64,000 nt of DNA from Umbelopsis isabellina. Taxonomy: Eukaryota > Mucoromycota > Umbelopsidomycetes > Umbelopsidales > Umbelopsidaceae. This document shows, piece after piece, positions 43,614 through 64,000 of the stretch; position 1 is the first letter of the stretch; each line of letters starts with the position of its first letter. A program made the translations under genes and the position numbers. The stretch covers positions 1,601,569-1,665,568 of the forward strand of contig JAEPQZ010000004.1 of NCBI GenBank assembly GCA_016758905.1, read 5' to 3'. Below the pieces are notes generated by a model. That model worked only from the letters and a program-made list of their open reading frames with translations, had not been told where the DNA came from and searched no databases.

Positions 43614-43799
43614 TGCCCCATGGACATTTACATACGATGTTCCCCGAAGACGCTTTAAAAAATTCGTCGATCCGTGGCAAGTGGTATATGTTGCGAATAG
43701 TGACTATTGTTCAGAGCTCTGATATTGCGGCTGCGGCTCACTGCCATAACACAGGTGAGTTTAGCTCGAGTTCACCCGCACAGATGACACTGCAATGAG

Positions 43800-50516: not shown

Positions 50517-51830
50517 TCATTTGTTGCTGGGTGCGATAGAGATCAACGTTGAACTGACATTAAGCTCATCTGGATATACAGGTATAGATTCCCTAGGAAG
50601 CTTACACAGATCCAACGGCATTAGCTTTTGTAACGATAATGGCATATAATGTGGCGTCCAGTATAAGACGTGGCAGCCATCCATAATACTGTTAGGAAGC
50701 TCGGGCCAAGTTGGATCCCAGAAATCTGATAATAATTTGCTTCGATCCTCGCTTATTGGGGTGATTCTATAGGTTTCCACTTCATATTCGTCCATGCTGA
50801 AATAAATTGGAGCATAGTTGCCAACTCTCCAATCGAAACACTGACGTAGCAAGATAGATGGCTGGCATTGCGCATGTCTTGGTAAGCGATGGGTCAAATT
50901 GGCCCGTCCATAGATATCGAATTCAATACCCTGTAGACAGCCTAGTACAATGACGACTGATCCCCATTAAAACAAAGTAATCAGTGAAACTTTCAGCAAT
51001 TGCGTTTAGCCGGTAAATGTCATTTCGACCAGCAACCTCGTTGATTAAAACTTTACCGACACCATCTTTCATGTATTTTAGATCAACTTTATAACTTTCA
51101 GTATTAAAAATTGCTGAAATCTTGTTCTCCAAGTCTGAATCTGCGCCGAGTATCAGACTCAGATTAGTCTGCAAACTCCATCCCGGCTCACAAGTGACAG
51201 AAAAGCAAGCAAGAATCATCCTATCCAAGCGTACACGAGTTAAATCGCTTAAAGCCGTGTCTATAATCCTGCTGAAATAGCCATCTTTTCTGCATTGATA
51301 TTTGTAATGTTGCTTTTTACTCCGATGCTCCCACTCCTGTGCTTCATCTGCCCTTTCGAAGTTTGGATTGGGTTGGTCTTCATAAGATATCCTCATAACC
51401 TCATTATTTGTGAAATCAGCTTCGCGAATATAATACCTCCATCGTTTCTGATTTTTGAAAGCCTGCCCTGATGCCAGCAACGGCCATCTAATTACAGCCC
51501 ACCTTTCATCATAGATAACTTATCATCATCCGCATCATCATCATCATCACTTGTATATTCTTCATATGGATCTTCATTATCATAAGTTTCAAAAGTGATT
51601 TGATGGGCGAAATTTTGAAGAAATATCACAAAGCCTATGGGAAAATCAGCTTGTAGGTATGACTCCATATCAGCGATGTACTTGGCATTGAAGAGTGGGG
51701 GCCTTGTAGGCAGCCCAAAGATCTCTGTCCTTTGTCATATAGCCGATACGACTTGGCTGTGAATCTTGATAATATACAGTATAAAAATTGTTCGTTGCTT
51801 CCAAGAATCTGAAATATAAAAAGAATCGTA
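50517..51830 (-). pseudogene. Frameshifted gene of unknown family
   Basis: Reading the minus strand, coding-like sequence runs in three blocks. A first block (about 51830-51590) contains FLEATNNFYTVYYQDSQPSR and then, after a frame change near 51690, AKYIADMESYLQADFPIGFV. A middle block (51500-50960) contains QKRWRYYIREADFTNNEVMR and ends ESFTDYFVLMG. The sequence continues in another frame from a GGGG run near 50955 as VVIVLGCLQGIEFDIYGRAN and on to the stop at 50517. Removing one G from that run would reconnect the last two blocks. An acidic GAT repeat (51520-51545) lies between the first two. No domain is recognised. It is either a decaying gene or one with sequence errors. Confidence 0.45.
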
Positions 51831-52979
51831 AAAAGAATTATACTTACGAAGACAGTGGCTATTATTTGCAGTACTCAGTTTTAAGCAAGCAGTAAAGGGG
51901 TTTTATACCAGCAATGGAGAGTTAACGTACTAGGAAGTTAGTGGTACTTAATCGCTCTCATTTTAAAACGTGCAATGGCTTCCCTCTTTCTACACGGCAC
52001 ACAAAATGTGGGATCTCGTCAACCACCATCACTGACTTTGGCTTCTGCTCTTGAAAGTGCCGACCCCAATAAGGCGCAGCATTTGACTTACGAGTCCTAT
52101 TTATCAGAATGTAAAAAAAAAAAAAAAAAAAATTGAGTTTTTAATCCTTGAATCAAGTGGTTTGGTCCTAAAGTATGCATGCGGTAGTCAGTCGTGGTGA
52201 CTGTGTCGAAAGGATTTTCGAAGTATCAGATACGATGAGACCACTTGCACCAAAAGAGTGGTGGGAACCATTAGAGAGATTCAGGATCTGTGATTGCGTT
52301 TGAAGCCTAAGTACGCAGAGGAAGAAGCACATTGGAGCAGTTCAAAAACTTCGACAAGCATGAGTTTGGGAAAAAAGCGTTGGAATTTGAACAGTAGAAG
52401 ACCATTGTGGATAAGAAGCGGGCACCAAGGATGGAGCAAAATGAGTAGTCTTGCAAAGTTCGTTGAGAGCTATGCGGGTGAATAATTTTATCAATAAGGA
52501 GAAATCGAGTCTTCAATTGTAAACTATGTAGACTCAGCTTAAGTATGGTGCATTTCACAAAGAGCTTGCTCAACAGGACAGCTTGATAACTTTCTGCAAA
52601 AGAGGGACTTTCCGAAACGCCATTTCTGTCTGATCTCACATATACAAATGCTGCGCTTGCTTGTGTAACCATCTGGCGCTGGCTGTAGGAGAGGTCAATC
52701 TGCATACCGAATTTCTTTGTCTGAATTTGGCCCGGAAAATTGCATTGTCTTTGAGGATTTTATTCAGATAATTCTTCCAATATATCTAGTGAGCTTACTC
52801 TCTTTCTCAGACTACACTTCCTTGATATTAGTGTATAGGAATTGGAATGCTCATTAACATGTCCTAAATCTCAATTCCAAATACATTCTAGATTTAGTCA
52901 TCTTGCTGCTTTGCAGCAGTGATACATTTTTGCCTACACCTGTTGAGTCGATAAATTTCTCTTTAGTTGCCTAGTGAGA
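51831..52979. other. Gene-poor region
   Basis: Holds an A20 tract (52113-52132) and short unsupported frames at 52.3-52.7 kb on both strands. No gene is called. Confidence 0.5.
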
Positions 52980-55900
52980 ATGGAATTACAGAACCAAAAC
53001 TTGGGACTTTTAACTCGCGCTCAATTGGAAAAATATCCTTGATGGCTTTAACCACCCCGCCTTGTATCAATTTCATGTGGAGCCTCATTATGGGCAGTAC
53101 GTGCTTAATTTGGTGCGAGTTCGTGTAGGTGTTCAACGGACTGACGGCATACCCATTGACTGGGATGAATTTCACGAGTGATTGAGTACACAAAGATACA
53201 GCCAACACTGCCGACGAGCCAGTGAAGGGGTTGAAGCGGTGGTCAGACGTTCGACTACTTTGAATAATTGGCAACTTCGGCGAAGCGACCGTCGTACTGG
53301 TTCCCCAATGATGTATATGGATTGGTTGAGCCATGTCAACACATGGGCACAAGGTGAGATTGCAGACCAATCCTGTAAGTCAGCTGAAAATATAAAAGGG
53401 CTCACCCAGTGCTACTTGTTACAGCCAATAGCTATATTCTATTCTGTGGAATAGGACCAGCAGATCAAGATTGGCAGGTTCGCTTGATGTGGTACAAGAG
53501 TTGCATTCTCGCATGATGTTTGTTATCATACATTGTCAGTTGTCACCTATTGATGCTCGATCCATTATTCCACTGCTTGATCAACATACTCCTTCTCTTA
53601 ATCAACTCGCCCAAATAGTTTTACCACAGTCTTTGGAGCAAGCTGTGAACTATGCCCTTCGCAGATATTACGTCGGCTGGGATCGTCAGCTGGAAGATGG
53701 CGATCAATTGAAACTCACGAGCAGTACCGATATTGGCTATCTGTCCCTCGAACAATCCATTAGTAATACATGGGTTGTAATGGCTACCCCCAAAAAAGCT
53801 CTAGACAAGACCAAGATTGGACATGGGATGCTCAGTTGCTATTTTGACCAACATAGACAACAAGAAATGAGCCCCGTCGTGATACTACCTCAATTGCAAG
53901 TTCGTCGATCGCATGCGCCAGTAAGAATGTTTTTCAGCAGGCAACCAGATATAGGCATGGTACAAATGGGACTGAATAATCTGCAGCAGGAATTGCTTGC
54001 GAGGTATAGTTTATCGGGTAATATAGCATGGCTCCATGTAAGCTCGCCTTTTCGATATTCAGCCGACTTTGGACCCCAATGTCGCATTTCAAGAGTGATG
54101 GCAGACTGGATTTGACTGAGTGGAAGCACTATTTGAGTGTGAGAATCAAAACAGCACAGCAGTTTCAAAACATTGAGGATAATGGTTGGGATGTTATTGT
54201 TGAGCCTGTGGAGGTAGAGGTAGGAGTAGCGGTAGCGGTAGCTTTGCCATCGCCGATGCCGATGACGACGATACCGACAAATGCACGCCAATTACCTTCT
54301 GGGATCACTTTGCTCTACTTGAGAGTCTCCTCGGGTGACAAACACATCTACGGGAACGGACTTGCTAAGCAACTATGTTACATCTTACCTAGAATCCAGG
54401 ATCTGATCAGAGAAACCACCAAGTTATATGTAATAGCAGAGTGCAACTCTTCATCCATGTATAGATGGCAAAACCGGAATATGTGGATTCAGTTCTACAA
54501 TAGTCTCTACAATAGTCTCGAACAAGATCATGGACCAATTGGCATAGTAACCGCTACACCAGACCGACTGACCAGACGACCAGAAGTCATACCACTGATA
54601 CATGCGCAATTTGAAAGGCAGCGTTGTAGATGGTTCAGTTTCAATGTTCTTGAAGAGAACCCAGATTAGTTGGTACAAGTTGATGAAGATCAGCATCAAG
54701 ACCTCGCTGCTAAACTGACATTGTCAATGGTAAGTATCATAATGGTCCGTTAAGTTATACCGGGTCTAACCCCTATGATAAGAACATCTCGCTGCAGTTT
54801 GTCTACTATAACCGTGGTTGTGAGCAAATGGCAAAGACGGTCAATCAGATTCGCTATATCCAGGAACTGCAAGCTCATGGAAACGCAACTGGAGTTTGGA
54901 AGATTGCATTCATCCGCGCGCAGCGCCAGCTGGTTACACGGTTTTGCTTGGAAAGACATATCACTCTAATTGTTATAGTTTCCAGAACCAGCCCAGAATG
55001 GTCCAAAAGACAAAACGACAAAAATTGCGAGCCTTCCTTGAATTTGCAGGAATATTTCTGCCACCAATTTGTCGACCCATTGAACCTGAATGTTCAAGTA
55101 GAGCAGTTACAAATCAATGGTGAGAGTGCCTTCGGCTAACAGACTATGAGTCGTCTGACACAACATATGGCCGCGCGAGGAACATTCTGATACTGGCTAG
55201 CAGCTTTGAACGGCTCACTAGGAGACAAGAACAGTTACTGGAGATGCTGGCCTGGCAAGAGCGAAACATATGGGTTATGAGTTTCCTATGGCCATTGCGT
55301 CGAGAGTTACCTTATCCAACAGATACCGCCAGTGTGGCAAGATTCATAGACATTGTACCACAGAACTTGGAGGACCCGCAGCTAATTCAAGATATTGTCA
55401 ACGGGTTTGCTAGAACCATTGCTTTACGCTCGACAATTTATGGTCATCCTGTAGTCATGCCTATGGTGCTGAGCGATCATAATCTATCCTTGATAGGTGC
55501 GGCAGTCTCTGATGCAGAAAACTTTGTGACACGTAACATCGACGTTGTATACTGGTCTACAACGCTACCTCAAAATGCACCGAGACACCAAAGGACCCAA
55601 AGAGGTGTTTTAAGGCGTTGGGAGGACTTTTGGAAAGGACATATCTCGCAAACCACCGGTAAGCTGCAGTCTATATTCACATAGATTTCGGAATGCCTAG
55701 TTAACAGTGGTTCATAGGCTTGAACCAAAGTGATATCCATTTTCAATGCATGAACAGTATAACAGCTCAAGGGTGTGTCAACAGATATTTTCGCGGTGAT
55801 GTTGCCCGAATGATCCCTGGCTGTTATTGTCGCAACTGTGATAAACTCCATACTCGGCTTTGCCCTTGTACAGGTCACGACAACTGCTCATGCCTAGTAC

Positions 55901-56042
55901 CATGCATCTGTGCCTGTAGGCATTGTCATAAGACAGGTGAGTGTCAGTCCATTTCAAGGTACTTTGAGATGTAGCTATCAAGTCATAGTTGTTTGACAAA
56001 AGTAAATCAGCTCCAGACGACAGACGCAACCCACAGATCTAA
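52980..56042 (+). pseudogene. Serine-recombinase-like multi-domain gene with Cys-rich C-terminus, decayed
   Basis: Exons inferred from splice sites and phase: ~52980-53374, 53425-54037, 54094-54729, 54798-55097, 55151-55658, 55718-55936, 56011-56042. Exons 3-5 contain a resolvase-type catalytic domain. It has ITLLYLRVSSGDKH (Arg and nucleophile Ser of the Y-x-R-x-S motif, codons 54322-54330). It also has IVTATPDRLTRRPEVIPLI (the D-R-L-x-R motif, 54562-54576), then strand CRWFSFNV and a helix-E-like segment. A second unit follows with FIRAQRQ, where the Ser position is Gln, and ILILASSFERLTRRQEQLL. An upstream unit is more degenerate (WVVMATPKKALDK). Exon 6 encodes the 11-Cys module. The frame is broken by a shift near 53037, TGA 53179-53181, a shift near 53470 and TAG 54667-54669. 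The family assignment rests on motif spacing. Confidence 0.55.
55822..55929 (+). other. 11-cysteine module (copy A)
   Basis: 36 codons with cysteines separated by 1, 2, 7, 1, 5, 1, 3, 1, 1 and 2 residues, then His directly after the last Cys. It contains LCPC, CIC and CRHCH. It sits in exon 6 of the recombinase-like gene, 7 nt before a gtgagt donor. The pattern suggests a multi-zinc-binding fold. It matches no domain I know. Confidence 0.75.
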
Positions 56043-57769
56043 CCTAGTCCATGACAGCCATTTCAGCATGGTTACTTGACACCTTTTCATTTTCTCAGTT
56101 ACCACGCTCCTCCACCCCATTCATAAACTTCGATACCCATGTGCTTTTTTTCATATATCCCATCTCTAATATTCAAGAATCATACACACTTGTTCGTCAA
56201 TATTCAGAAGTAACACCCAAAAATAGTTATCATAAAATCAAATTTATATTCTTCCTTCTCCAACACATGTATCTGAAAAAGCTACCTCGTTCCAGCAACA
56301 GGATATCTGTATTTCACATGATGTAGAATCCTAATTCACATACCTATGTGTTTTCATTGTCCATTCATGGTGTTCAGCTACTCACTGTCTTTCACAAATA
56401 CTCTCTGAATGGTCAACACAACGCAGCTCTGTCTACACGTCTAAAGGGACTGATACTATGGATATCCTGTGCGCCAAGGCATTCCACTGCACACAATGCC
56501 GTTCACCCAGTCCATACGGTCTCATATGGTAACGTCAAGTATAACCCACCCGCTCACGCTGTAAATGGCATTTCAGTGACTGCTTTTCAGCGATATCTCT
56601 TTGGTAAGCCAGCAACAAGCTATGACCAGCATGCTTTGCATAATCATATTGCCAAAGTATGTAAGAAAAATATATAATTTCTGTTGCATTTCAGACAAGT
56701 GCATCGCAAAGAATATATTAAAGCTGGCTCTGGTAGCTACAGTTGCCAGAGAATTTCTGTATATCTCCCAGCCAATAGAAGAAACGGCTACAATATTCGG
56801 GAAGAAAATCTACCCGTGTATGTGAAACTCTAGTAGAATGCACTACAAATATGTCGACAAAAACCATAAGATAACCATAAATAGACTGAAAGCTATACAT
56901 ATCAACAAATCCAGGTGCTAAAGGATTGCCATTTTTTCCCTCAAACACCTACCGACTGCTAGTAAGCTAAGCATTATTGCAATGTGCTATTTCTATCGCT
57001 ACAATCGTCAGTCACGCGTGCCAAAAAACAATCAATAAACATGCTCATAATAATCGTAACCCAATTTCCCCATCATGTGTTAATACTAGTTGACATAGTC
57101 GAAGTAGTGACTTCTGTCCTCATATCTAATGAGGAGCAGCTGCGTTAGTAAATGTCTCCCAATGTGACACAAAAACGGGTGCCTGCATCGGAATTCCATA
57201 AATAGCAACTCAGCTGATATGAGACTGCTATTGCTAAGCCACCATAACATAACTTTCTTCCATAAATTTAACTTCTGAAACCAACAGATTGTAATATTTC
57301 AACCATAAAAACGGGATATGACCGTCAACGCCTGCGTCTAATTTTTGATTGTGTATAATTCTCTGTTCCATTCCTTCCTCCTGCTTTCACATCGGTAAGG
57401 AGGCACAAAAACTAATTCCTCCTAAGGTCACAACACTCCGAAGCAATATTCTATAACGGGCTCCGATACAACATGAACCAATCATATATGGTAATGAGGT
57501 ACTAAGCGACACTAATGACTTCACTTTCTCTTTTCACAACCCACATATCCTCATAAAATACTTTTCCGAGCTTCCTAAAGAAAGAGATAGACATAGTAAA
57601 CAGTGAAACTTCAAAGCAAAATAGCTAAAAAATTGGGGCTATCTCCCGTGCTAAAAAATTCCAAAATCGGACAAATGTGTCGCTCCCTAACCTAAATTTC
57701 TTTTCTGAACCATAACTTCTTCCTTCAAGTTATCTTTCCTTCATAACTAAGGATGGATTTTCCTCTATC
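56043..57769. other. Gene-poor region
   Basis: A 109-residue plus-strand frame (56348-56677, with VSYGNVKYNPPAHAVNGISV and then a gtaagc donor after YLFG) could be one exon of another element-borne gene, but nothing joins to it. The rest holds no visible gene. Confidence 0.4.
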
Positions 57770-57788
57770 GTCCTTCGGGACACATAAC

Positions 57789-57819
<31 letters not shown>

Positions 57820-57885
57820 GGCCCCTGCACAAGGATGACACTAAGCCTCTGAGATGATAGTAGCTACGGCTACAAAACTATTTTT
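57770..57885 (+). ncRNA. U6 spliceosomal snRNA
   Basis: The 5' hairpin GTCCTTCGGGAC is followed by AAATTGGAACGATACAGAGA, which contains the invariant ACAGAGA box. Next come GATTAGCATGGCCCCTGCAC with the AGC triad and the internal stem-loop, then AAGGATGACA. A T5 run at 57881-57885 fits a Pol III terminator. U6 forms the catalytic centre of the spliceosome. The 3' part after GATGACAC (from about 57843) does not match the usual U6 tail, so the end is approximate and a truncated or retro-copied U6 is possible. No intron interrupts it, and no clear TATA box was seen 25-30 bp upstream. Confidence 0.85.
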
Positions 57886-58071: not shown

Positions 58072-58600
58072 GGCTAAGGATCGCCCAATTTTCAGCTCTG
58101 TATCTCGCTGAGGATGGTCCGAGTTTTCTAGATCAATCTTCCTCAGTAAGGATAGTTCCAGCTTCTAACTCCATGTCACTGGTAAGCATAGTCCCCCAGA
58201 TTCCAGGTCCATATCACTAGCTAAGAATGCGCTCGACGTCCCAGAATCTCTCAGTCGATATCGATGTCCTCAACGTTCTAATTCTATCTGCCTTGGCTAT
58301 GGGTGGCCTCAGTTCTCTAGCTTCATCTCGTTCACTAAGCATGGTCCGGGATTTCTAATCCTAACTACCTTCACTGACCATGGCCTCGGCTTTCACACTC
58401 CATCTCACTCGCTAAGGGTGGTATCAGCTTTCTAGCTCATTTCACTCACTAAGCACGGCCCGGGTTGTCTAGCTTCATCTCAATCACTAAGCATGACTTC
58501 TGCCTCTAACTCTATCTAAATCGCTAAGCATGGCCCCAGTTTTCTAGCCCCATCTCACTCAGGTAAGGAAGCTTCTAGCCTCCAGCTTCAACAGTATCAG
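58072..58600 (+). repeat. Degenerate minisatellite, 36-39 bp period
   Basis: About 13 diverged units around CACTAAGCATGGCCC followed by GTTTTCTAGCTCCATCTCA. The CTAAG-like anchors fall at about 58335, 58374, 58412, 58449, 58487, 58524 and 58563, with earlier units at 58075, 58111, 58148, 58186 and 58223. Confidence 0.75.
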
Positions 58601-60459
58601 CTGAGTCAAGGAAAATCCTTGCTAAGCAAAACGAGTACATGATGCTGGCCTAGAGAAAAGTGGCTGGATGAAGATTGCCCTGCCACAGGAAGCGGAGTTG
58701 CTAGCCACTGGCTTTCCCTAGCTACAGGCGTGAACAAGTGAATTGTCATCCATATCCTATCAAGGATCCTGGATGCCCGTTCAGCAAGCATAATGTAGAT
58801 ACGCATCGACCTACTCGCGATGACTCTGATATCATGTGACTACGACTAAAATCACCATGCTCAAATCGAAGGCATGTCTGTGGTTTCCAAGCAGTTGAGG
58901 AGATGGCACAGGCACAATGACACGTGGCGTGTCGCAGGCTGACACCAGCCACAGACACTGGTTTCACTAGCCATAGCTAGCTGTTGCCACTTTGAAGACT
59001 ACTTTTCATGTAATCACCAGAGGTAGATAGCGCGGACACAGAGGTAAAGTCGCAGACAGCTAGGCTATCGCTAAGCTTCCTAGGGGAGCCTCGCTGTCTC
59101 ACCACCACCACCGTGGTACCATGCCCACCGCTTCTCGTACTCATCGACGATAGTCGCACGAAAAGCTAAGGTATGTGCACACTACTGAAATCTCTCTAAA
59201 CTCGTTCTCTCACTATCTATTTTCATAGTTGCTATCCATGGTCGTTCAGGGGTCATACTCTCATGGTCTACAACCACAAGTAATCATTCTATTCTGTAAA
59301 TATCTTCTAGAACAATGCTTTGACAGCAAATCGCCCTTCAAAAATGTTATTCATGCAACAATAGTCTGCCAACTAAGCAGCTGAAATCGGATTCGCGCAT
59401 CTGAAATCCCTCGGATATGCGCATATGCAAGGTAAGCACCAGATGCTTCAAGTTGAACCAACCAAGTGACCGGAACAATGTCGAAGCCATTCCAGAAAAA
59501 AATCTGTCTTTCGCTAAAAATCCCACAGGAAGCTCATGCATCTAACCAAAAAATTCGATTTCTGGAAGTGATGTCCAAAGACCATGGTAAAACGAGTAGT
59601 CAGAACTATCTGTATCCTAAGTGTTGTCTGCTTCAGCTGGCTATCTAGACAAGATGTGCAGATTTCTCTAGCTGTATTCAGAGAACTTCAACTAAGCCCC
59701 CCACTGACCGAACGAAAATCGATAAGTATTCTCCCAATGATTTTCCATCGAAAAATGAAGCTCGAAATGTCATGCATGAGATATATCGGAGAATCAACAG
59801 ACACGAAAGTTCAGTGGATAACATCGTTACAGTAAATACGTGCTCGAGTCTAGTAGTGGCCACTAAAGAATTCTATTTCTAGTCAAAGAGAAAAAGTACA
59901 GTGAAAGGTCAAAGATAACAATCCAAGTGCAGCTGCTGATTTCAATTGCCGTATTTGCCTGTGGATCAGCACAACAGTGGCCCTCTCATGTATGGTCCGC
60001 CGCTCCTCAGGGGAGCTATGAGTTTGATCAAAGGTTCGGAGAAGCTGGCATGACTGATATTTCACATATCAAAACGTAACTCCCGCGCAAATCAAATTGA
60101 ATTGACACAACTACGGCACTATCAAACCATCGATTTCCAAAAACATAATCAAATGTTTTCATGATGCAAGCTAACTACTGAAGCAAACATGAAGAGCAGC
60201 ATATTCTGTCTGTTTTTTCGTCCATTTCACTGAAAGTGCTACCTTTTTCAATGCACTGAGTTTGCATTGGTCTCATTTTCTTTGTTTTCAGGCTGATACT
60301 TCAGAGGGGGGTAAAAGCACACTGACTACTCCTAAGACCGTGTACTCAGTGCTATGTGTTGAACCCTTTTCGATCCTCATGAGAGAAAAGACGCTGCTTC
60401 TAAAACAAAGTACTGTGCGACGTCATCATCAACGCAGAACAAAAATGCCTCAGTAAACT
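58601..60459. other. Gene-poor region
   Basis: No gene or RNA recognised. Scattered copies of a CTAGCCA-type word occur up to about 58.98 kb. Open frames near 59.5-59.8 kb have no coding character. Confidence 0.5.
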
Positions 60460-60960
60460 GGCATACAGCAGCAAGGTAGCTCAAACAAACCATCACACAG
60501 TTCCGAAACACTTTGACCACATGTTTTCAGGGAGAAAAGGGAACTACCAACACAGAATTGAATTGAATTGAATTGAAAGAAATGAAAAAGTGAATTGAAT
60601 TGAAATGCCTCAAGGGTATGAATGGGAAACGATATAAATGGGGATTTGGACGGATTCGCATACAGTAGCTAGGTGACTCAAACAAGCCATCATATAGCTC
60701 CAAACACTTTGACCACATGCTTCTCAGGGAGAAAAGGCTACTACAACACAGAACTAAACTAAATGAATGAAGTAGTCAATTGAACGAAGATTGAAATGAT
60801 TTGAAATGCTATGAATGACGTGAATGGGACACGATTTGAATGGAGAATTGAATGAATTCGCATACTGTAGCTTGGTGGCTCTATAAACCATCACACCTCC
60901 AAACACTTTGACCACATGCTTTTCAAAAAGAAAGTGGTTACTATACCACAGTGGGTAAGG
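60460..60960 (+). repeat. Three-unit tandem repeat, 196-199 bp period
   Basis: Units are anchored by CTTTGACCACATG at 60511, 60707 and 60906. Each is preceded by GCATAC(A/T)G(C/T)AGC and CCATCA, and followed by (A/T)CAGGGAGAAAAGG or a diverged form. Between units lies sequence built on GAATTGAAT words, which continues to about 61.2 kb. Confidence 0.85.
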
Positions 60961-61358
60961 TATACGAATTGAATGGGTTGATTGAATGATGCGTGCACTG
61001 AATGAAGTGAACGAAGTACGTGTATAGAATGAATTGAACGAGTGGCTTGTATCGACTGAATGAAAGGCGTGTATTGAATGAATTTGATTGAATGGTATAC
61101 AATGCCTGACTTGATTGAATTTGGCTAAGAATATAAACGAATGATTGAAAGATTTTATTTCCTAATTGAAGCTGATATCTTAAGACGTAATTGAACAAAG
61201 AAATGAAAAGACGGATGGAAGGCACTGGATTGTAGTCTAAATTTCAACCAGTCTAACTGTTAGAGTCCATGTGGAAACATGTCAGCAATATATCTACATC
61301 AAAGGCTGTCATGGCGCAGCCTCTCCATCAGATCCCATAAAAGTACTCACCGGAGCCT

Positions 61359-61466
61359 GTGGCAAGTTCTACATGGACAAATACAAAAAACTGGGCAGAT
61401 ACAACCAGCGATACCATTACAAGGACATAGTTGCGAGCGCAAGCCCTTGCAACGACTGCAATTGCA
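61359..61466 (-). other. 11-cysteine module (copy B)
   Basis: A minus-strand 36-codon stretch has exactly the cysteine spacing and length of copy A at 55822, with LCPC, CIC and CRTCH shared. It too is followed by a gtgagt donor 8 nt downstream. Upstream on the minus strand, coding-like but broken sequence (61.54-61.80 kb, for example ALSDTEIPYRRQ) may be the matching recombinase C-terminus. It is likely the tail of a second, inverted and more decayed copy. Confidence 0.65.
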
Positions 61467-61541
61467 ACTCTGGTCCATATTGGCCGCAGTTGCATTTGTA
61501 GCTCGGTTTGGACACTGGTAACTTGTCTGACTGATCGACAT

Positions 61542-63817
61542 TTCTGCTTACCATAAGGTTTGAAAAAGATTGTGTCCGGAAGTCAATCATGATTGGTCCA
61601 TGCCGCGCGCAAAACGGGATTCAGTAGGAGCACTATGGGGTAGCGTAGTGGAAGAATAGAAGATATGTTTGTCTGCGATACGGAATTTCGGTGTCTGAAA
61701 GGGCCCTGGTCAATGCCATGGTTGCATCGCAAAATGGAGTTTGGCATTATAGTTGATAGGCCATGAACAGCTGCTTGCAGAACAGCTGTATGATGCAAGC
61801 CTCCCAGATAGTGTGGGCCAGCTGGATGTCAACAGCATCTAGCAACGTCGTTTCCTCATCGGTGTTATGCGAGTTGCAAAGTGTAAGTTAGGAGCCACAT
61901 CAAATCAGTACCGGTACTCCTTGACGTTACTACTGAGTTTCCTGTAGTGGAGACAATGAAAAATTGACCATATAAAACAAAATTCTCTCCTGCAAACCGT
62001 TGGCCGCTTGTAACGAGGTGCTTGAAAACGGGTTCCCGATGGTCGATGGTAGTGAAAAGCACTATACATGTATATATCAGCTGCTTTATGATTAAAGAAA
62101 GGTACTAACTAGCGCGAAGATATTGGAAATGTCAAGAGACATGCTTCTTCGGAGTCTGGCTTTGATGTAGTTGAGTGTTGGCCGACTAATTCATAGTATC
62201 AGTCGGAACGTCAACTTCTGCAAAATCATCCCATTCAACACCGTATACACTTGATTCAGTAAATATATTTGAACCAGGTCCAAATTTCAAAATATAAACT
62301 AAAGTGGGGCTGCACATCAGCAACGAAATACTCTGGTACCGTCTTTGAAAACTCACGAATTGTTATACTATTACAAACGCTTTTTAGAGCATCTACAAGC
62401 ATTGACACTCACAGAATTTAAGTAAGACTTGCAGCAACAAAGTGTTTTTGAGGTGCAGGTCAAGAAAGCGCTAAACGAGATGCAAACGCAACTTTTAAGG
62501 CTGGAATTCGTGAATTTAAATGCAATATCAGAACTTGACATTGATTGGTCGCCTGTTATATGAAGTGGAGCTTTCAAACGTGGCATATGCAATATTTAAT
62601 TACTTTAACAAAGTAGGCATTCTTTTGCTATCAATGTCCTTAACGAATAAATGAATCTAACTCTATTTTCCAGGAGAAATACAAGTCGAGACTTGAGAAT
62701 TAAACATATGAAATTGGATTGGGATGGCAGTGATGTTTAGAAGCGTTAGTATAACGACGTCAGCACAATTAGAAAGGGAACGGTCCTTTCGAGATAGATA
62801 CTACAATATATATCATAAGTAATAAGCAAGTATGATGAAAAGTTACCAAGCCGTATTTGGTTGGGTGATGTGATTGACAAACTGATAAACCAATCAAATG
62901 AATAAAATGCGATGTTGTCATCTAGAGAAGAATACACATGACGACTTTACGTTGTCTTTAACCATAGCAAGGATAGAAGCAGTGGAAAGCTCAAAATATA
63001 GCAAAACAGTCGTTAATCCGCCAATAAAAAAGAATCTATGGAGAGGTTAGGCTTGTAACACAAGATTAAGAAAAGGTTGATAAGAGCGGATAACTAAGCA
63101 AAGCGATTATTACCAAACCGAAAAGAAAGAGTTATGAGAGAACAGAAATTTGCGCTGAGCGAGTGGACTCAAATATTCTTTTTTGCAAATATCTATGCCT
63201 CACGACGTCTTTCTAAATTCGGCTATCAGACTGCCTCGCTGAAGTTTCTACTCTATTATGACCATGCTGTGCTCCACGGAGGTAAGAGAGTATTTATAAA
63301 CAATAAAATAAATGGTTATGAAAGGCGTAAAAGTTGATACATTTATATTTAGGTATAAAAAGTAGATATAAACTAAATATTGAATATTATAACATAAAAT
63401 CGATTACAAACGGAAGGCATAGCATTAGAAAAAAAAGATACAGAGTACAATAATATAAGACCAAGACATCAGAATAACACATATAAGATGAACCAATAAA
63501 CAGAAAAAATAAGTTATGGAACACAAGGAAGACAAGACAGAGCATACGACAAAGAAACAAACAAAAGATTAAACAAATATAAATATAAGAAACAGGAGTT
63601 AACATATAAATTATAAAATATAAAATTTAGACTTTAAGTTATAATTGGTATAACGGCAGATTTTAGCGAATTTAGGATTGAGAACAAAAGAGTTAGAACT
63701 TCGGGTATAAAAATCCAAGCATTAAGATTTAGAATTTTTCTGTCGAAATATATTTTCCTAGAAAATTCATTCAGGCCATGGGACTTGCAAAGATGAGCGT
63801 ACAAATGTGTTAGCAAG
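61542..63817. other. AT-rich region without genes
   Basis: Apart from the possible relic adjoining copy B, no gene or RNA is seen. From about 63.3 kb the sequence is very A/T-rich. Confidence 0.5.
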
Positions 63818-64000
63818 CTGGCAGAGCTACGGGCTGGCAGAGCTACGGGCTGGCAGAGCCATCACACTAACGGCTGGCAGAGCCGTCCGAAGGGCGGGTG
63901 CCAGGTGAAGTCAGGCTGGAGACACTTCATATAGGCACCGAATGGGGGGGTTACTGACTGGCAGAGCCGTCCGAAGGGCGGGTGCCAGGTGAAGTCAGGC
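63818..64000 (+). repeat. GC-rich tandem repeat running off the right edge
   Basis: CTGGCAGAGC occurs at 63818, 63834, 63850, 63874 and 63958. A 43 bp segment at 63874-63916 is repeated exactly at 63958-64000, an 84 bp period. The window ends inside the repeat, so the array probably continues. Confidence 0.85.

Follow-up and report, generated by a model that had tools for sequence, protein, structure and literature searches.

The window, meaning the whole stretch of 64,000 nucleotides that was analysed, harbours a decayed, spliced gene on its plus strand (copy 1), composed of six open pieces, e1 to e6, between about 52980 and 56042 (Table 1). Two in-frame stops (TGA at 53179 and TAG at 54667) interrupt the reading, and the frame is not the same in e3 as in e2, nor in e5 as in e4; a start at the ATG at 52980 would require a third frame change. 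The putative introns have GTAAGT, GTAAGC or GTGAGT donors and AG acceptors, and in the case of intron 3 there is an alternative AG a few bases downstream. An earlier sequence-only reading had described a gene with introns, decayed by two stop codons and two frameshifts, and this description was borne out, with at least two frame changes. The Cys-rich C-terminus that it proposed was also found, as a 3' exon whose cluster follows the pattern CxCxxCx7CPCxGxxxCxCxxxCICxCRxCH (55822-55929) and holds 11 cysteines, C40 to C74 (numbered as residues of the open piece 55705-55971).

Table 1. Features of the two decayed gene copies in the window.
Feature	Position	Strand	Remarks
Copy 1, whole decayed gene, ATG to TAA	52980-56042	+	TAA at 56040-56042, after the last intron
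N-terminal piece (...PALYQFHVEPHYGQY...IDWDEFHE stop ...)	53050-53374	+	In-frame TGA at 53179-53181; weak counterpart in copy 2
Putative intron 1 (GTAAGT...TTACAG)	53375-53424	+	
Open piece e2, eroded first unit of the sequence-only reading (WVVMATPKKALDKT)	53432-54112	+	
Central serine-recombinase-like catalytic domain	54298-54666	+	Followed by in-frame TAG at 54667-54669
Putative intron 2 (GTAAGT...CTGCAG)	54730-54797	+	
Piece e4, after intron 2 (FVYYNRGCEQMAKT...)	54798-55136	+	Frame change to e5 near 55124-55139
Candidate second unit without Ser, ERLTRR at 55208-55225	55124-55330	+	Profile scores compared with shuffles
C-terminal domain ahead of the tail (...VVYWSTTLPQNAP...)	55331-55658	+	Copy 2 counterpart at 61664-61599, 50% over 22 residues
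Putative intron 3 (GTAAGC...TTAACAG)	55659-55707	+	Donor position kept in copy 2
Cys-rich 3' exon	55708-55936	+	Cluster C40-H75 at 55822-55929
Putative intron 4 (GTGAGT...AATCAG)	55937-56010	+	Donor position kept in copy 2
Copy 2, second decayed family member	61330-62400	-	N-terminal motif, C-terminal domain, Cys tail at 61547-61347

A second decayed copy (copy 2), absent from the sequence-only reading, lies on the minus strand at about 62400-61330. It extends over approximately 1.1 kb, and its pieces follow the order of their copy 1 counterparts. The only clear relative of the Cys tail in the window was found here, at 61532-61356 on the minus strand (44% identity over 59 residues, E 4e-10). 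The C-terminal counterpart, IFYSSTTLPHSAP, was a better match (E 8e-4 within that 2-kb region) than the N-terminal counterparts, PEYFVADVQPHFSLY and VEWDDFAE, which are weak individually and are supported by the order and strand that they share with copy 1. The two copies also have two splice donors in common, GTAAGC behind the C-terminal domain and GTGAGT behind the tail, as well as the 11 cysteines and H75 of the tail. Between the two tails, pN was 0.41 and pS 0.79 (saturated) over 59 codons. This divergence, together with the shared cysteines and H75, indicates that the lineages split long ago, that both were selected and that both died later. Judged from these comparisons, copies 1 and 2 are members of an old family formerly under selection and now dead. 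No counterpart of the central domain was found in copy 2 between the N-terminal motif and the C-terminal domain; consequently, copy 2 is unable to confirm a recombinase identity.

Some shorter likenesses to copy 1 were observed. At 43739-43760, CACTGCCATAACACAG followed by GTGAGT resembles the end of the Cys-tail exon (55921-55942, 19 of 22 bases), and a small ORF there reads AHCHNTGEF; it is perhaps a third tail, far more decayed. A 19-base inverted match pairs 52663-52681 with 54921-54939 (18 of 19 bases complementary), where a minus-strand ORF (52759-52310, QRQMVTQ...FVYVRSDRNG) can be compared with e4 (QRQLVTR...ITLIVIV); the match may come from a fragment of a third copy in inverted orientation, or may have arisen by chance. 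At 56096-56010 there is a likeness to e5 in antisense (E 0.07 against the window), which was taken as chance.

By its content the window appears to be fungal. It has introns of the spliceosomal type, a U6 snRNA gene (57770-57885; Rfam RF00026, 79.8 bits) 1.7 kb downstream of copy 1, and a long catalase. The best match of this catalase in PDB is 'Catalase 1' (1sy7, 597 bits), HPII-type chains scoring about 500 bits or less. Two overlapping minus-strand ORFs of 149 and 198 residues (50520-51519) had no Pfam match and look like a broken orphan gene. Repeats comprise units about 200 bases apart at 60461-60933, which hold CACTTTGACCACATG (three copies) with GCATAC-rich flanks, a cluster of seven degenerate 40-base repeats at 58105-58560 (spacings near 38, 75 and 150) and, at the window edge, an exact 43-base direct repeat (63874-63916 and 63958-64000, starts 84 bases apart).

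Motifs and profile scores of the central domain

The sequence-only reading had pointed to Y-x-R-V-S followed about 80 residues later by D-R-L-T-R. Both motifs are present in one open frame (54022-54666), YLRVSS starting at 54316 and DRLTRR at 54562, the two starts being 82 codons apart. YLRVS (54316-54330) corresponds to the Y-x-R-x-S nucleophile motif of serine recombinases, and the DR-x-x-R motif, present as DRLTR, stands at the normal spacing from it. The residues concerned are Y (54316), R (54322), the Ser at the nucleophile position (54328), Q (54370), R (54475), D (54562), R (54565) and R (54574). A six-frame search of the window gave the pattern Y.RVS, 60-95 residues, DRL[ST]R once; none of 150 order-2 Markov windows contained it, and a looser version gave identical counts. 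When 72 recombinases were compared, the central domain kept 8 of the 12 columns that at least 75% of them conserve and all seven columns common to at least 68 of the 72. The four columns that it lacks are three in the second conserved block (D, S and G) and one serine before the conserved Q.

The 72 sequences, which are non-redundant serine-recombinase domains, were used as an HMM. They include Gin, PinE, TP901-1 and phiC31, IMG/VR relatives of the Gin and TP901-1 proteins, and PF00239 matches from genomes of the phylum of an Oscillospiraceae MAG; the profile is mixed, as 32 of the 72 come from short stretches taken by position, some of these being of the IS607 type. With this HMM, the piece 54022-54666 ranked first among the 751 six-frame window ORFs of at least 40 residues (15.3 bits, E 6.3e-4), and the next ORF was unrelated (E 0.095). 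The score was not reached by any shuffle of the piece (0 of 20,000, of which 12,897 were reported, low scorers being unlisted; best 8.5 bits) or by any ORF from 150 synthetic Markov windows (0 of 124,140; best 11.8 bits). Because the piece had been picked for its two motifs, the shuffling was also performed with YLRVS and DRLTR fixed; none of 5000 shuffles of the remainder reached the score, which removes the bias from the motif-based choice.

An HMM of 32 large integrases also placed the piece first in the window (12.4 bits, E 0.0048), and its score was reached by 1 of 5000 motif-fixed shuffles, or by 4 of 5000 when new shuffles were made. Shuffling only between the motifs gave 3 of 5000 with the 72-sequence HMM and 4 of 5000 with the large-integrase HMM; shuffling only after the motifs gave 43 and 286 of 5000 respectively. 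The cleaned small-recombinase HMM (4 sequences) ranked the central piece 42nd (0.8 bits, E 21; 732 of 5000 motif-fixed shuffles), a 9-sequence set chosen as small recombinases ranked it 36th in the window (E 24; 772 of 5000 shuffles) and the cleaned IS607 HMM (13 sequences) ranked it tenth (2.1 bits, E 6.2; 197 of 5000 motif-fixed shuffles). A comparison by hhalign with a narrow 12-sequence profile was uninformative (score 17.2, reached by 3 of 200 shuffles). In six comparisons between true recombinase subfamilies, the median scores were 23.8 to 92.4 bits and the minimum was 11.6 bits, mostly better than the 15.3 bits that the central domain reached with the mixed HMM and the 12.4 bits with the best single one. 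By these scores, profile support for the central domain is one-sided, coming from large-integrase-type profiles, and the likeness of the central unit to recombinases looks to go beyond chance. The resolvase-like catalytic domain of the sequence-only reading is thus backed by the large-integrase and 72-sequence profiles, but it is not singled out by the small-recombinase and IS607 profiles.

The low rank with the IS607 HMM bears on one alternative, namely that copy 1 encoded an IS607-type, Fanzor2-linked serine recombinase, a kind already reported from fungi. In the available text of the two reports, yeast carries IS607-type serine recombinases (PMC2715888), and some Fanzor2 elements of eukaryotes and giant viruses are found with them (PMC3627910). 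In the available text of PMC6188088, the IS607 TnpA has its DNA-binding domain ahead of a single catalytic domain, whereas copy 1 has hundreds of residues on either side of the domain, introns and a Cys tail. Such an origin appears highly improbable.

Model structures, flanking domains and candidate further units

Single-sequence searches of Pfam, NCBIfam, PHROGs and PDB gave no recombinase matches, only non-significant, unrelated hits; no PF00239 match was reported for the central domain and e3 had no NCBIfam hit. AlphaFold2 models of the central domain were poor (pLDDT 49.7 for the single sequence, 52.7 when 17 genuine recombinases were aligned with it). Among the 50 structure matches listed of 1303 for the single-sequence model there was no recombinase, nor was there one among the 50 listed of 567 for the 17-recombinase model. 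A fold search had been suggested by the sequence-only reading as a check on the resolvase fold; at these pLDDT values, the absence of a resolvase from the first 50 matches listed is no refutation. The single-sequence model has the order strand, helix, strand, helix, strand, two helices, strand. This is the order of recombinases, and many folds share it.

In serine recombinases, the fourth strand is followed by helix E with its conserved E/R. A helix E was not recognisable after the central domain, where the profile alignment ends at 104 of 147 even with 20 post-stop residues; the region is broken and this is a weak negative. Recombinase (PF07508) and zinc-ribbon (PF13408) domains were not found in e4, e5 or e6 (both were detected in the TP901-1 control), and there was no HTH_7 after the central domain (HTH_7 was detected in the Gin and PinE controls).

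These negative searches, and the poor models with no recombinase among the matches listed, would be expected if copy 1 belonged to a decayed host gene family of unassigned function, the recombinase likeness of its central domain being convergence or chance in one broken copy. The small-recombinase and IS607 profiles that pass over the domain speak for the same reading, as does copy 2, which keeps the ends of the gene without the central domain, and a one-in-1600 match (E 6e-4) would be less rare if many windows were read. It is opposed by the motif-fixed comparisons, in which the remainder of the domain beat 5000 of 5000 shuffles with the 72-sequence HMM and all but 1 and 4 of 5000 with the large-integrase HMM. 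We consider a host gene with a fortuitous likeness a serious alternative, with a chance somewhat short of even.

The sequence-only reading had assembled the protein from several resolvase-like units, one of them keeping E-R-L-T-R without the nucleophile Ser and an earlier one more eroded. FERLTRR is located in e5 at 55205-55225, after a strand-like stretch. The score of the first 80 residues of e5 with the 72-sequence HMM was reached by 19 of 5000 shuffles (70 of 5000 when ERLTRR was held fixed), and that with the large-integrase HMM by 17 of 5000 (73 of 5000 with the motif kept). The best match between e5 and the central unit lies in another register, MYRWQNRNMWIQFY / MLAWQERNIWVMSF (13 of 5000 shuffles gapped, 0 of 2000 ungapped), which is not what a simple repeat would give; in register and outside the six motif residues, the match is weak (907 of 20,000). 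The piece e2 did not stand out from its own shuffles, of which 2278 of 5000 reached its score with the 72-sequence HMM and 2309 of 5000 with the large-integrase HMM. Its match to the central unit was weak (140 of 5000 gapped for residues 21-165, 297 of 5000 for all of e2 and 20 of 2000 ungapped), and its WVVMATPKKALDKT can be aligned by eye with GIVTATPDRLTRR. For e4, the corresponding HMM counts were 132 and 486 of 5000.

WQERNIW of e5 (55124-55681) resembles WQNRNMW of the central piece (54022-54666), a likeness that none of 2000 shuffles reached and that is not in the register of the recombinase motifs.

From these scores, the central unit is the one supported recombinase-like unit; the E-R-L-T-R unit is possible, its 19 of 5000 being suggestive, and the eroded e2 unit, with 2278 of 5000, is unsupported. 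A more elaborate arrangement would be a tandem array: a single polypeptide would carry consecutive recombinase domains, an active unit standing between two regulatory, nucleophile-less units as a built-in multimer. In its favour are the alignable stretch of e2 and the e5 scores, which with the 72-sequence HMM exceeded those of 4981 of 5000 shuffles (4930 of 5000 when ERLTRR was left in place); the weak in-register match of e5, its better match off-register and the failure of e2 to exceed its own shuffles with either HMM count against it. We regard the array as improbable.

Relatives, inferred function and comparison with known recombinases

No credible relatives of the window proteins were found in IMG/VR, no Cys tail was found in GTDB genomes, and tblastn searches of phages with e3 and of plasmids with the central domain gave nothing credible. 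These collections cover viruses, bacteria, archaea and plasmids, so absence from them says little about fungi. Two IMG/VR loci were discarded as chance matches, one (L001) antisense to a 474-residue ORF that resembles a phage terminase by eye and the other (L251) antisense to a 108-residue ORF. A word-matching search of open-access full text showed no publication on a serine recombinase of Mucoromycota among the matches listed.

Terminal inverted repeats (14 bases, at most 1 mismatch) were not found for copy 1 (51900-52980 against 56042-57760) or copy 2 (60400-61330 against 62420-63900). The available text of PMC6188088 describes IS607-type elements as having no terminal inverted repeats either, and the missing repeats therefore do not decide on mobility here.

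Our preferred explanation, to which we give a probability of about 0.45, is that the locus holds the fossil of an intron-containing fungal gene family, with at least two members here, whose central domain probably came from a serine-recombinase catalytic domain. Taken by itself, true descent of the central domain from a serine recombinase seems slightly better than an even bet on the profile evidence. Its nearest relatives would probably be the large integrases, though it is far from them. The family was perhaps a transposase, as the sequence-only reading had suggested. The likeness to the profiles outside the two motifs, the catalytic positions that are kept, copy 2, the former selection on the tail and the decay are observed; descent, catalysis, zinc binding and transposition are what we infer. 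In the intact protein, the serine of YLRVSS would have cut DNA and joined it covalently to the protein, the flanking arginines would have held the phosphate, and the Cys/His cluster would presumably have folded around zinc for DNA binding or subunit contacts. The DNA that such a protein moved or rearranged would most likely have been its own element.

A bolder form of the preferred explanation posits a so far undescribed superfamily, made up of eukaryotic DNA transposons or of domesticated recombinases and unrelated to IS607/Fanzor2, in which a large-integrase-like serine recombinase is built into a large, intron-bearing protein with a Cys/His tail and possibly extra inactive recombinase units. 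We hold this to be rather doubtful. The eukaryotic serine recombinases in the available text of PMC3627910 and PMC2715888 belong to the IS607 type. A large fungal family with introns and a layout of its own would, if true, represent a second entry of serine-recombinase chemistry into eukaryotes, and its intact members could be studied as candidate DNA integrases. The tail signature given above, drawn from two fossils, is a handle for seeking intact members. If the central domain proves otherwise, this is an ordinary decayed gene family.

Among known systems, IS607-family TnpA is comparable in that serine recombinases of this family are reported from fungi and other eukaryotes (available text of PMC2715888 and PMC3627910), but the protein of copy 1 differs in domain order and size, and the IS607 HMM does not single out its central domain. 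With the small resolvases and invertases (Gin, PinE) it shares the positions of YxRVS and DRLxR; by contrast, it has no HTH_7 after the domain, is much larger, contains introns and is not picked out by their profiles. The features in common with the large serine recombinases (TP901-1 and phiC31 integrases) are YxRVS, a Q 18 residues after the Y, an R before the second helix and DRLxR. It differs from them in sequence (17-24% identity when aligned by MAFFT with 17 recombinases), in the position of the domain in the middle of the protein, in its introns, in its Cys pattern and in that no PF07508 or PF13408 was found after the domain. We file the protein in no named subfamily; it may have worked like a large serine recombinase, and perhaps descended from one.
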